Virus record (IMG/VR): IMGVR_UViG_3300010399_000055
Location: 1 to 41,626 of that record
DNA from: a virus
DNA length: 41,626 bases
Strand: one strand, 5' to 3'
Within the stretch, counting starts at the first letter, position 1; every line of letters begins with the position of its first letter. The translations under genes were made by a program, and so were the position numbers. Positions 4,236-41,626 of this stretch are shown here, piece by piece. The notes under the pieces are model-generated. The model did no database searches. It had not been told where the DNA came from and was given only the letters and a program-made list of their open reading frames with translations.

Positions 4236-4267
4236 ACGTATATGTTAGCCGCAGCTTATAAAGTAAC

Positions 4268-4303
4268 AAATCCATCACAAGCGCTGCGGTTTGTGATGGA
4301 TTT
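4268..4303 (+). promoter_or_regulatory. 13-bp perfect inverted repeat in the groES leader
   Basis: AAATCCATCACAA (4268-4280) and its exact complement (4291-4303) flank a 10-nt loop. It lies between the promoter and the groES ribosome site (AGGAG). Position and shape recall the CIRCE operator found ahead of bacterial groESL, but the sequence differs (CIRCE is TTAGCACTC-N9-GAGTGCTAA). It may be an operator, a translational control hairpin or an attenuator. Confidence 0.75.
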
Positions 4304-4323
4304 ACTGTTTTATAGGAGTTAAT

Positions 4324-4722: not shown

Positions 4723-6288
4723 ATGGCTACTAAAAAAGAGAATAGAATCTTAATTGATGAAATCGAAACACAATCTAAGTTGTTAGAAGGTGCGTACGAA
4801 GTATACAAAAAGGTTATCAAGACCTACGGTCCACGTGGTAAAAATATTGTTATTGAACAAGGATTCGGACGACCTGTATTTACGCGAGACGGTGTTACGG
4901 TTGCCAGAGCAGTATACTTTTCTGATAGATCCAAGAACATGGGTGCACAGATGCTTACAGAAGCTTCAGAGACGACAAATCGTATCGCCGGAGACGGTAC
5001 AAGCGCTACTGTTGGGCTAAGTTATTTCCTTCTCAAGAACAGTAACCAAGCAATCGCTGCTGGCATGCATCCTATGGACATTAATGCTACTTTAAAAGCA
5101 GACCAGGAATTATTACTTGAAAAACTTGAGAAGCTGACGAAGTTAGTTAAGAAGGGTCAACTCGAAGACGTTGCGACGGTGTCATCTGGTGACCCTCTGC
5201 TTGGGAAGCTTATCTCAGAGGCTATAGAATATGTCGGAGATGAAGGCGGTATCATTGCCGAGAAGGCCCCCGTAAACTCCGTAGAACGTGAATACGTGGA
5301 CGGTTACTACCTACAATCTGGATTTAGGGCCCTACAATCTGGTAAGAAGGAACTGGTCAGCCCTGCCGTTGTCGTGTGTGTCCGACCCATTAGGTCAAAA
5401 TCAGATGCTTTTGAGCTCCTTACGGCCGCTGCCAACAATATGGGTATCCAACCTGGTAGTGGAGAGATTCCTCGTATGCTCCTCGTAGGAAACATAGAAG
5501 ACGCCGCATACGCATCTATTGTAGATGCTATAAATAGAGGCGCCCTAGACGCCATCATTGTCACCCCTCCGCCATCTTTTGGTTCGATGGGCAAGGAACT
5601 ACTTGAAGATATTGCAATCTATAGCCAGTGCAAGACGGTATCAGATATAACAAACATGCGTAACTTTGATAGCTCCTATCTAGGCACAATCGATCGTGTC
5701 GTAACAACCAAGAATGAAACTACAATCTTTGGTGAGACTGACACAGAAGACCTAAAAGTACGTATCGCAGACATTAAAGATGCTATCCAAGTTGAGGTAT
5801 CCGATCTTGTTGTTGAGCGTCTTCGAGATCGTGTCGCTAAACTTGAGGGTAAGATTGCCCTTTTCCGCATCGGTGCCCCAACTGATTCAGCTAAAGAGGA
5901 ACTTGAGTTTAGGATCGAAGACGCTATTAACGCAACACGAGCTGCCAGCAGGTATGGCATCGTCGCTGGTGGTGGTATTACCTTACTTGAACTTAGTAAG
6001 GTTGAGGGTCTTAGTGATATTTATAAAAAGTCTCTCCGTGAAGTGTTCAAAAGGCTTCTCATTAATGCCAACCTACCATCTGAGGTGAGATTAAATGAAG
6101 CTCTAGCAGCACCAAAAGGATTTGGATTTAATCTTAGAAAAGATGAAGGTCTTGTTGATATGATCAAGGATGGAATTATCGATCCTAAGTTGGTCACAGA
6201 ACAAACAATCGTCAATGCCACCGACACTATCGCCAATGGTATTATCGCCGGTGGCATGATTACATTCGCTGATGACGAGGTGAAATGA
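4723..6288 (+). CDS. groEL: GroEL-type chaperonin
   Basis: A full-length 521-aa chaperonin. Equatorial ATP-site motifs are intact: TYGPRGKNIVI, TRDGVTVA (Asp of the E. coli Asp52 type), AGDGTSAT (Asp87 type) and RIEDAINATRAA (Asp398 type), followed by GIVAGGGITLL. The apical domain is strongly diverged (EREYVDGYYLQSGF...). The C-terminal GGM repeat of bacterial GroEL is missing; the protein ends AGGMITFADDEVK. It should fold phage, or phage-modified host, proteins in an ATP-driven cage together with the GroES-like partner 21 nt upstream. Confidence 0.97.
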   Translation: MATKKENRILIDEIETQSKLLEGAYEVYKKVIKTYGPRGKNIVIEQGFGRPVFTRDGVTVARAVYFSDRSKNMGAQMLTEASETTNRIAGDGTSATVGLSYFLLKNSNQAIAAGMHPMDINATLKADQELLLEKLEKLTKLVKKGQLEDVATVSSGDPLLGKLISEAIEYVGDEGGIIAEKAPVNSVEREYVDGYYLQSGFRALQSGKKELVSPAVVVCVRPIRSKSDAFELLTAAANNMGIQPGSGEIPRMLLVGNIEDAAYASIVDAINRGALDAIIVTPPPSFGSMGKELLEDIAIYSQCKTVSDITNMRNFDSSYLGTIDRVVTTKNETTIFGETDTEDLKVRIADIKDAIQVEVSDLVVERLRDRVAKLEGKIALFRIGAPTDSAKEELEFRIEDAINATRAASRYGIVAGGGITLLELSKVEGLSDIYKKSLREVFKRLLINANLPSEVRLNEALAAPKGFGFNLRKDEGLVDMIKDGIIDPKLVTEQTIVNATDTIANGIIAGGMITFADDEVK

Positions 6289-35297: not shown

Positions 35298-35315
35298 GTA
35301 CCTTTAATATAGAAA

Positions 35316-35342
35316 ATCCACCATTTACGCAATATGGTGGAT
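35316..35342 (-). terminator. intrinsic terminator of the membrane/lysozyme unit
   Basis: 9-bp stem ATCCACCAT/ATGGTGGAT, 9-nt loop, then TTTCTATATT on the minus strand. Ends the unit that begins at the promoter near 36409. Confidence 0.75.
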
Positions 35343-35484: not shown

Positions 35485-35847
35485 CTACCACCAATTTCCC
35501 ACATCTTTACCGTTTATAGGAACCCTAGATAGCCAGAATGATTTTGCTGCTGACCAGCTACCGTACCTTTTAAGCATATAACTAGTGAAATAGTCATCTT
35601 CACAAGTATAGTCAAGCGATGGACATATCTTATCTATTATTCCATTACAATCTTGGCCTAATCCCACACATCCATAACTGTTCCGTCTTGCAGGATTATT
35701 CCCTGATTCATGCATATAGATGAACATTTTGTCTGAATCATCCATAGACACTACAGGGGTAATGCTTGCAATCTGTGGTCTACTATATGTACTTGTAGGC
35801 TCTACTATTGTCTCTAGAGCTATATGAGGTGCCCATTTAACAGGCAA
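35485..35847 (-). CDS. lysozyme-like peptidoglycan hydrolase, lacking a normal start
   Basis: From about residue 40 the protein reads MFIYMHESGNNP...YGCVGLGQ...YMLKRYGSW, ending GNWW. This is the fold signature of small lysozyme/transglycosylase-like domains, with likely catalytic Glu47 in HESGN and four Cys (60, 67, 75, 82). There is no ATG or ribosome site; only a TTG at 35847. The frame is open upstream through the end of the membrane-anchor gene and is in -1 register, so a frameshift fusion may be the true product. Confidence 0.7.
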   Translation of the reverse strand: MPVKWAPHIALETIVEPTSTYSRPQIASITPVVSMDDSDKMFIYMHESGNNPARRNSYGCVGLGQDCNGIIDKICPSLDYTCEDDYFTSYMLKRYGSWSAAKSFWLSRVPINGKDVGNWW

Positions 35848-35867
35848 AGTAGTAATGGCACGGGTTA

Positions 35868-36065
35868 CTACTTGCTTCCTAAAGAGGCCAGATGACTTGC
35901 TTCTGCTGCTACTTTAGTATTCATAGTCTCACGCATGTTCCACCCAAAGACGGTAAATGTCAGTGCTGTTACTATGAATCCAATGATTAACCACGGAAGT
36001 GCTGCTTTCTTGTACCATGGGGTACTAATAGTTTGTTTACGTACTTTTGCTTCTTGTTCGGACAT
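35868..36065 (-). CDS. membrane anchor protein, possibly the N-terminus of the lysozyme
   Basis: 65 aa: charged N-terminus (SEQEAKVRKQTISTPWYKK), one membrane segment (about 26-44), short tail, then the double stop TAG TAA. Strong ribosome site (GAGGAG). The lysozyme frame is already open across its last codons, so a -1 shift before the stop would create a type II membrane-anchored lysozyme of about 195 aa. Without a shift it is a separate small membrane protein. Confidence 0.65.
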   Translation of the reverse strand: MSEQEAKVRKQTISTPWYKKAALPWLIIGFIVTALTFTVFGWNMRETMNTKVAAEASHLASLGSK

Positions 36066-36408
36066 ATGAATCTCCTCGTTTGTGTTGAGTGTAGTAGTGC
36101 TGGTAATAAGTAAGTTACGACTTTCCCTGAACAGACTTACTATCCTCCGGTATCAGATCGTTTATTACCAGCACTACTACACTCAGATTTTTAATGTTTG
36201 TAACTCAATGGCTTTTACCCAAACACATTATCGCCATTTCGCCTGTCAGTGCTTGGAGTGGATTTCACACTCAGCTGGGATTGTTGTCCAGGTAGGAGCC
36301 ATTGAGTTGTTAATGTGTAAGCGATTTGCCTTATAGCTTGGTGTGGCGTTGGACTCTGCATCCTATCACTTTTCTGTATCAATCCTTGTATTACCGATTG
36401 ATACTTTC
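36066..36408 (-). ncRNA. highly structured leader or RNA element (about 335 nt)
   Basis: From a strong promoter the transcript reaches the ATG at 36065 through stacked structures. They are: a 9-bp hairpin GTATCAATC/GATTGATAC near the 5' end; an interleaved pair ACACATTA/TAATGTGT (36223-36230/36311-36318) with AACTCAATGGCT/AGCCATTGAGTT (36202-36213/36297-36308); and a 24-bp perfect stem (36086-36109/36162-36185) whose loop holds AGTAAGT/ACTTACT. The ribosome site follows directly. No ORF. It could be a cis-regulator of the lysozyme unit or an independent RNA. Confidence 0.6.
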
Positions 36409-36437
36409 AGTATAGCACAAGCAGTATAATAAATCAA
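36409..36437 (-). promoter_or_regulatory. sigma70 promoter of the structured leader unit
   Basis: TTGATT (36432-36437), exact 17-nt spacer, TATACT (36409-36414). It overlaps the end of the HNH gene at 36434. Start predicted near 36402. Confidence 0.75.
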
Positions 36438-38520: not shown

Positions 38521-39378
38521 CTATCTCTTCTCCTTCAAGTTTTTAAGAGCTTCTGTTAGTTCTTCAGTAACTTCATACTCTTTACCGCCTATATTAATAG
38601 TAGTTTCTTCTTTTTCTATTTTATCGACGTCTTCGATTTCATAATCACCAATGACTAATAGATTTTTGTAGTCTCTCCCGCTACTGAATCCATCTTCTTT
38701 TGACTGGTCGATAATAGTTGGAGTTATCGTGCCATCACTTGAGGATAGGAAATAACCTTTAGTGTATTTCTTTTTAAGAGAGACCTGAGCATCGCCATAG
38801 ACCCGAGCATTGCCATAGACCTGAGCATCGCCAGAGACCCAAGCATTGCCATAGACCTGAGCATCGCCAGAGACCCAAGCATTGCCAGAGACCCGAGCAT
38901 CGCCAGAGACCTGAGCATCGCCATAGACCTGAGCATCGCCATAGACCCGAGCATCGCCATAGACCCAAGCATTGCCATAGACCTGAGCATCGCCAGAGAC
39001 CCAAGCATTGCCAGAGACCCGAGCATCGCCAGAGACCCAAGCATTGCCAGAGACCCGAGCATCGCCATAGACCTGAGCATCGCCATAGACCTGAGCATCG
39101 CCATAGACCCGAGCATCGCCATAGACCTGAGCATCGCCATAGACCTGAGCATCGCCATAGACCCGAGCATCGCCATAGACCTGAGCATTGCCAGAGACCC
39201 AAGCATCGCCATAGACCCGAGCATCGCCATAGACCCTTTCTGATTCTACCCATCCACCTTTTTCACCCTTTTTAACTCCACGAGCTGGAATATCCACCGT
39301 AGCCTCAATGCGAAATAGTTTGTATCCAAATACGTTGATCTTACTTTCACTTGTTAGTTTAAATTTTAGTTCTGACAT
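38521..39378 (-). CDS. hexapeptide-repeat beta-helix protein
   Basis: From ATG 39378 (strong AAGGAGG) the protein begins ELKFKLTSESKINVFGYKLF..., resembling the cap of a phage family. It then carries 25 perfect-length hexapeptides of form V[YS]G[DN]A[QRW] and a C-terminal domain of about 95 residues. Such repeats form left-handed parallel beta-helices or filaments. Another in-frame ATG at 39432 (MSTQQRDSKGRF) has a fair ribosome site. Function unknown; possibly polymer-forming. Confidence 0.8.
   Translation of the reverse strand: MSELKFKLTSESKINVFGYKLFRIEATVDIPARGVKKGEKGGWVESERVYGDARVYGDAWVSGNAQVYGDARVYGDAQVYGDAQVYGDARVYGDAQVYGDAQVYGDARVSGNAWVSGDARVSGNAWVSGDAQVYGNAWVYGDARVYGDAQVYGDAQVSGDARVSGNAWVSGDAQVYGNAWVSGDAQVYGNARVYGDAQVSLKKKYTKGYFLSSSDGTITPTIIDQSKEDGFSSGRDYKNLLVIGDYEIEDVDKIEKEETTINIGGKEYEVTEELTEALKNLKEKR
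38785..39234 (-). repeat. 25 tandem 18-bp coding repeats
   Basis: 450 bp encode 25 hexapeptides with no length variation. Variation is restricted to three codons: TAT/TCT (Tyr/Ser), GAT/AAT (Asp/Asn), and CAG/CGG/TGG (Gln/Arg/Trp). The remaining bases are nearly constant. All other frames are open through the array, creating long false ORFs. Confidence 0.95.
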
Positions 39379-39466
39379 CTTGTCCTCCTTTTTAATAAAT
39401 CTTCCTTTAGAATCACGTTGCTGAGTGCTCATAGCGTACCTCTTAAATAAATTTCTAATCATTATG

Positions 39467-41504: not shown

Positions 41505-41626
41505 AGCTTCCTCATCCTTGTATCGATATGGTAGAATGATAATAACCTAAAAGTCTCTAATTTACCATTAAAGACTTGAGGGGGAGAGTTCACCCAGAAT
41601 AGAAAAACCTCGGTTTTACCCGAGGA
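41505..41626. repeat. 122-bp direct repeat, right copy (terminal redundancy)
   Basis: Identical to 70-191. Ends exactly at the last window base after the GC hairpin. Confidence 0.9.

Follow-up and report, generated by a model that had tools for sequence, protein, structure and literature searches.

A structured leader RNA with a conserved clamp module ahead of an anchor-lysozyme gene in a phage genome and in related viral contigs

The window analysed here is the whole stretch of 41,626 nt given by the virus record IMGVR_UViG_3300010399_000055 of IMG/VR (positions 1 to 41,626). It carries on its minus strand a leader of 338 nt (36403→36066), which adjoins the frame of a 65-aa single-pass membrane protein and then a lysozyme-like frame, both located 3' of the leader. 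No convincing ORF is present in the leader, as the preliminary description of this DNA had stated, and a 55-aa ORF with a TTG start inside it (36382-36215) was left without support. The features of the locus are the following, in 5' to 3' order.

36409-36437, minus strand: promoter-like site TTGATT-17-TATACT with extended -10 TG (9/12 match and similar sites in relatives).
36377-36403, minus strand: 5' hairpin of 8 bp (36396-36403/36377-36384), from the fold of the leader.
36319-36371, minus strand: 5' domain, an outer stem (36365-36371/36319-36325) around two small hairpins (separate folding; same shape in relatives).
36307-36316, minus strand: linker ACATTAACAA, from the sequence; recurs ahead of modules in many relatives.
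36202-36308, minus strand: central domain with a 12-bp closing stem (homologues in relatives; fold z -4.65).
36256-36272, minus strand: hairpin GAGU-GUGAAAUCC-ACUC (compensatory changes in L059 and L047).
36188-36197, minus strand: second linker ACATTAAAAA, from the sequence.
36086-36185, minus strand: clamp module, a 24-bp perfect stem (36162-36185/36086-36109) with a 52-nt cargo loop (36110-36161) (inverted repeat, family covariation, z -8.67).
36072-36077, minus strand: ribosome-binding site GAGGAG, outside the clamp stem, from the sequence.
35868-36065, minus strand: ORF for the 65-aa membrane protein with one hydrophobic stretch, frame 0 of the anchor-lysozyme gene.
35485-35913, minus strand: lysozyme/transglycosylase-like frame, -1 relative to the anchor, with a 43-nt overlap (alignment with relatives).
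35308-35342, minus strand: terminator-like hairpin ATCCACCAT-N9-ATGGTGGAT with a T tract after it, read by eye.

The leader folds at -109.8 kcal/mol, compared with -71.2 +/- 4.35 kcal/mol in 100 dinucleotide shuffles (z -8.87), none of which folded as well, and this, together with the covariation in the family, bears out the earlier view of a large structured RNA leader. The 5' hairpin, described as 9 bp long, is present but has 8 bp; hairpins of differing sequence were seen by eye at its position in L087, L058, L043, and L061. Similarly, the proposed inner 7-bp stem (36135-36141/36109-36115) exists as a pairing, but it is absent from the minimum-energy fold and is no feature of the family. 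Two interleaved pairings had been taken for a pseudoknot or switch, and both can be drawn. The 12-bp pairing (36297-36308/36202-36213) is lengthened in the fold by additional inner pairs, but the 8-bp 'A' pairing (36311-36318/36223-36230) is at the level of chance, shuffled leaders having a mean of 0.83 such pairs. The 'A' strand sits in the ACATTAACAA linker, which recurs across the family, and the A' strand does not recur. The A-B-A'-B' pseudoknot was rejected because A' is not conserved in relatives and 8-bp pairs of this kind are expected by chance. A structured 3' trailer downstream of the lysozyme was likewise rejected (fold z +0.84 against shuffles).

Promoter-like sites such as the one at 36409-36437 are not rare in this region, where 13.3 are expected by chance and 7 were found. 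The earlier reading of a near-consensus promoter agrees with the 9/12 match and the extended -10, and it is supported by very similar sites in four relatives. L042, L043, and L048 have TTGAC(T/G), a 17-nt spacer with TG ahead of the -10, and TAGTAT at the homologous leader start, and L061 has the same hexamers there but lacks the TG.

Rfam cmscan at gathering scores gave no match in the window and 16 relatives, and miRNA and SmY matches at E 0.2-3 in relaxed scans were judged to be chance. The leader region and half of the genome gave no BLAST match among INPHARED phages, nor did the relatives L059, L067, and L047. A terminase search led to three relatives, one of which (G003) contains the hairpin arm. 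Scanning of IMG/VR with the arm GTAGTAGTGCTGGTARTAA returned 25 contigs. In all of these except L056, which appears to be a coding repeat, a loop of about 30-230 nt separates the arm from a complementary 3' arm. Since the first scan set the 5' arm alone, the presence of this 3' arm counts as independent evidence. The 3'-arm scan of IMG/VR added L065-L069, and scans leaving the outer stem free added L089-L090. The clamp module is thus known from 31 viral contigs besides the window and from one prophage-like contig of a host genome (L075). Bacterial and archaeal genomes (257 Gb) contain the arm 19-mer at 10 places, and the partner arm accompanies it only at L075. A structure-led scan with the inner stem left free gave 31 matches, compared with 2 in reversed sequence; a few of the 31 are due to chance. 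The lysozyme-led search, in which leaders were not picked by RNA, gave six loci, including L087 and L088 with a 5'-domain-like leader. The cargo loops range from 29 to 230 nt, which makes a single covariance model unsuitable for the family.

The clamp consists of an outer stem of 10 bp, an internal loop with GUA on the 5' and CA on the 3' side, and an inner stem of 13 bp that closes a variable loop. In 25 distinct modules, 97.2% of the stem cells are paired, and two-sided changes are found in 13 of the 23 stem pairs (shuffle mean 4.7). The covariation score is 0.321, compared with 0.131 in shuffles, with none of 500 shuffles as high, and it drops to 0.06 or less when the partner arms are slid against each other. 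The letters and the conservation of the 5' arm are partly set by the search, but the outer stem is mostly free of this constraint; seven of its ten pairs covary, for example as CG/UA/GC or GC/CG/AU/UA. The check for covariation in related phages, which had been proposed in the preliminary description, therefore came out in favor of a conserved fold, and the clamp module is strongly supported as a structured RNA with compensatory base changes across distant members. Two pairs of the inner stem are mostly wobbles (G.U in 22/25 modules, U.G in 16/25), and since these would be A.C mismatches on the opposite strand, it is the gene-sense strand that folds. The module is a repeatable unit: L055 and L058 have two modules in tandem with ACATTAACAA-type linkers between them, and L055 has a second module type, in which the inner stem differs (TTTGCC/GGCAAA) and the GUA/CA loop is the same.

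Integron attC sites are also imperfect inverted repeats, in which unpaired positions are conserved and the terminal part varies, and they are identified by the R box (GTTRRRY/RYYYAAC) and a linked tyrosine integrase. The clamp shares the imperfect repeats, the unpaired positions, and the variable terminal loop, and this loop can hold an ORF, the modules can be in tandem, and they are scattered over distant phages. All of this would suit a DNA element, i.e., a recombination or replication hairpin of attC type or a mobile palindrome, transcribed incidentally. Such an element is nevertheless unlikely, given the conserved G.U pairs, which favor a gene-sense RNA, the additional covarying RNA domains and linkers beside the hairpin, and the fact that several phages have a promoter before it; the arms lack attC boxes as judged by eye.

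In the window, the claimed 24-bp perfect hairpin is confirmed exactly, the inverted repeat 36162-36185/36086-36109 enclosing a loop of 52 nt. The 5' arm equals the family consensus in all but one letter. The 3' arm deviates from the consensus at several positions, by which it becomes the exact reverse complement, and the GUA/CA internal loop and the wobbles are gone. Such a perfect stem would result if one arm had been copied from the other (quasipalindrome correction). The internal loop may be dispensable, or the copy in the window may be an altered one.

Other domains of the leader recur in part of the family. When the 5' domain is folded separately and the shapes are compared, the window, L087, L055, and L043 show the same shape with different outer stems, and L061, L048, and L088 show a similar one; in some modules no 5' domain was detected. 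L059 and L047 have homologues of the central domain (E 2e-11 and E 0.0019, respectively). Its closing stem is long in all three despite different letters (AACTCAATGGCT/AGCCATTGAGTT, TTCAATAGTC/GGCTATTGAG, and ATTCAACCGC/GCGGTTGAAT), and the hairpin within it reads GAGU-GUGAAAUCC-ACUC, GAGC-GUGUAAUCC-GCUC, and GUCU-GUGAAAUGC-AGAC, respectively. In its letters, the loop of this hairpin appears to resemble a tRNA T-loop.

The cargo loops are almost wholly different among phages, except that L047 and L050 share one. Short ORFs lie within the cargo loop in L060 and L075, and an 81-aa ORF was seen by eye within a comparable long stem in L088. In L065 (6415-6552), the clamp loop holds a tRNA-like gene, reported by ARAGORN as tRNA-SeC(tca) with a 39-nt insert at the anticodon. 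Further tRNA-like domains are near the clamps but outside them in L057, L059, L062, L067, and L069; they have the T-arm GCAGGG/CCCTGC, with the loop widened by insertion (TGACTATACGAG...CTCGTCRAATC). The tRNA scan of the window gave no tRNA-like element. In L067, the entire RNA region is present in two copies about 2.75 kb apart, and the sequence between them was judged by eye to be transposase-like.

The downstream unit had been described as a membrane anchor plus lysozyme with its own terminator. The anchor stands with its single hydrophobic stretch, and the second frame is lysozyme-like by alignment, but a Pfam search of the lysozyme-like ORF in the window gave no match. Among the relatives tested, the transglycosylase domains match Pfam SLT or SLT_3, with L042 under the cut-off. 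The terminator claim agrees with the hairpin and T tract read by eye downstream (35342-35316), the 9-nt loop of which exceeds the range covered by the hairpin scan. The transglycosylase frame is in -1 register to the membrane ORF in 13 of 13 loci where the two overlap (the window, L086, L087, L088, L055, L058, L059, L054, L042, L047, L043, L061, and L004). Since the second frame is -1 and without a plausible start in every one of them, the two are probably a single gene, predicted from sequence to be expressed by programmed -1 frameshifting, which would give an anchored lytic enzyme. Candidate slip sites are A AAA AAG in L004 and T TTT TTA in L087, as well as G TTA AAA and G TCA AAA. A literature search for a phage transglycosylase made by frameshifting found none.

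In nine contigs (the window, L042, L043, L047, L054, L055, L058, L059, and L061), the frames after the module encode a small membrane protein and a domain of transglycosylase type, and because of this some link of the RNA to the lysozyme remains. The RNA could thus be a cis-acting leader of the anchor/transglycosylase gene, its folds setting mRNA stability, translation, or frameshifting and so timing the cutting of the cell wall; the distance from clamp stem to start codon, 13-50 nt in seven relatives checked, is in agreement with this. The association is however not constant, each partner occurring without the other. The closest relative, L086 (82% terminase identity), has the anchor-lysozyme operon with a promoter and a leader of about 30 nt without the RNA, and L004 and L085 also have the operon without it, while in L049, L044, L045, L048, and L064 the RNA is ahead of other genes. 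The ribosome site is 8 nt beyond the clamp stem in the window, and no alternative conserved pairing that includes a ribosome site or terminator was found in the window and the relatives checked. There is no sign of ribosome-site sequestration, because the ribosome sites are outside the stems wherever checked. A cis-acting leader is for these reasons possible but rather doubtful. Of the two options raised in the preliminary description, a regulatory RNA timing a lethal gene is weakened by the other downstream genes, and a stand-alone structured RNA fits better.

Varied downstream genes, and the promoter that several phages have immediately before the RNA, would also be compatible with a 5' element serving any operon, either by terminator readthrough of RNA polymerase or by shielding the mRNA 5' end. 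HK022-type put antitermination RNAs are about 65 nt long, have two fixed stem-loops, and form the structured start of a phage transcript. The clamp RNA is likewise a structured 5' RNA, but it measures at least 340 nt and has variable cargo loops, and loops of up to 230 nt with ORFs or tRNA are ill-suited to a compact antiterminator. Moreover, no good promoter was found within 420 nt of several modules, and in the window a terminator-like hairpin lies close downstream. Such an element is considered unlikely.

The reading preferred here, to which we give about an even chance, is that the leader belongs to a not yet described family of structured, modular RNAs of phages, probably those of small-genome (Patescibacteria-type) hosts, and acts as RNA itself. 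A host-type promoter would make an RNA folding as a string of independent domains on ACATTAACAA-type linkers, in the order 5' hairpin, branched 5' domain, T-loop domain (in some members), and at least one clamp module. The clamp would provide fixed arms, with the inner loop free to vary or to carry short ORFs or tRNA. The RNA would function in its own right, as a structural scaffold or as a protein- or ribosome-binding RNA, and in the window phage it would be co-transcribed as the 5' leader of the membrane-anchored transglycosylase, leaving the ribosome site free. Against this family reading are the gene association in nine contigs, the window copy without the GUA/CA loop, and the modules without a 5' domain.

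Large ornate RNAs are known from phages. GOLLD RNA (RF01998) is found in phages and prophages, often near tRNAs and sometimes with tRNAs in its variable linker, and ROOL RNA (RF03087), an ornate RNA of phages that also has a variable linker, is located near tRNA islands (PMC12286853). The clamp RNA is comparable to both in style but unrelated to them. All but one of its loci are viral, and tRNA-like elements are present in L065, L057, L059, L062, L067, and L069 but not in the window. Many GOLLD members exceed 800 nt, whereas the RNA of the window has about 340 nt and is made from repeated clamp modules. From ROOL it differs in its tandem clamps on short linkers. It is filed in neither GOLLD nor ROOL because an Rfam match is absent. 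A metagenome RNA survey reports thousands of candidate RNAs (PMC8040213), and the clamp RNA may already be listed in such a survey without an Rfam entry. More tentatively, and with the probability tending against it, the clamps and tRNA-like domains with their cargo may form an ornate modular RNA class of Patescibacteria phages, possibly serving as a scaffold or cage during infection.

The suggested type of host comes from L075, the genome of which is alone in containing a true module among the 257 Gb of bacterial and archaeal sequence. This genome is labelled 'Chloroflexi'; the phylum containing it is represented by 380 sampled genomes of 0.4-2.0 Mb, and L075 thus belongs to a small-genome phylum, probably Patescibacteria. 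A 13-mer searched across this phylum was not enriched (38 matches, about 32 in the reversed control). The terminase of the window gave no host assignment, because it reaches distant phages only (about 24-25% identity among the best rows).

If the preferred reading is true, a large modular structured-RNA family missing from Rfam exists in phages of hard-to-culture hosts and stands beside GOLLD and ROOL, and its compact member of about 340 nt suits probing and structure determination. The clamp with its free cargo loop could serve as a natural RNA-display scaffold. The conserved -1 overlap in the neighboring lysis gene yields a further prediction, which can be tested separately.

Elsewhere in the window, a GroEL-like chaperonin gene is located at 4723-6288 on the plus strand (Pfam Cpn60_TCP1 8e-38; PHROG groEL 8e-92), and a YdcK-type beta-solenoid protein is encoded at 38521-39462 on the minus strand, with a long array of 18-nt tandem repeats (38689-39326). 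An inverted repeat of 24 nt (83%) with a 10-nt loop lies at 4257-4314 between convergent or divergent genes and is possibly a two-way terminator. Direct repeats at the contig ends (70-191 = 41505-41626 and 1-108 = 1117-1224) suggest that the genome is circular or terminally redundant and that its left end contains an overlap from assembly.
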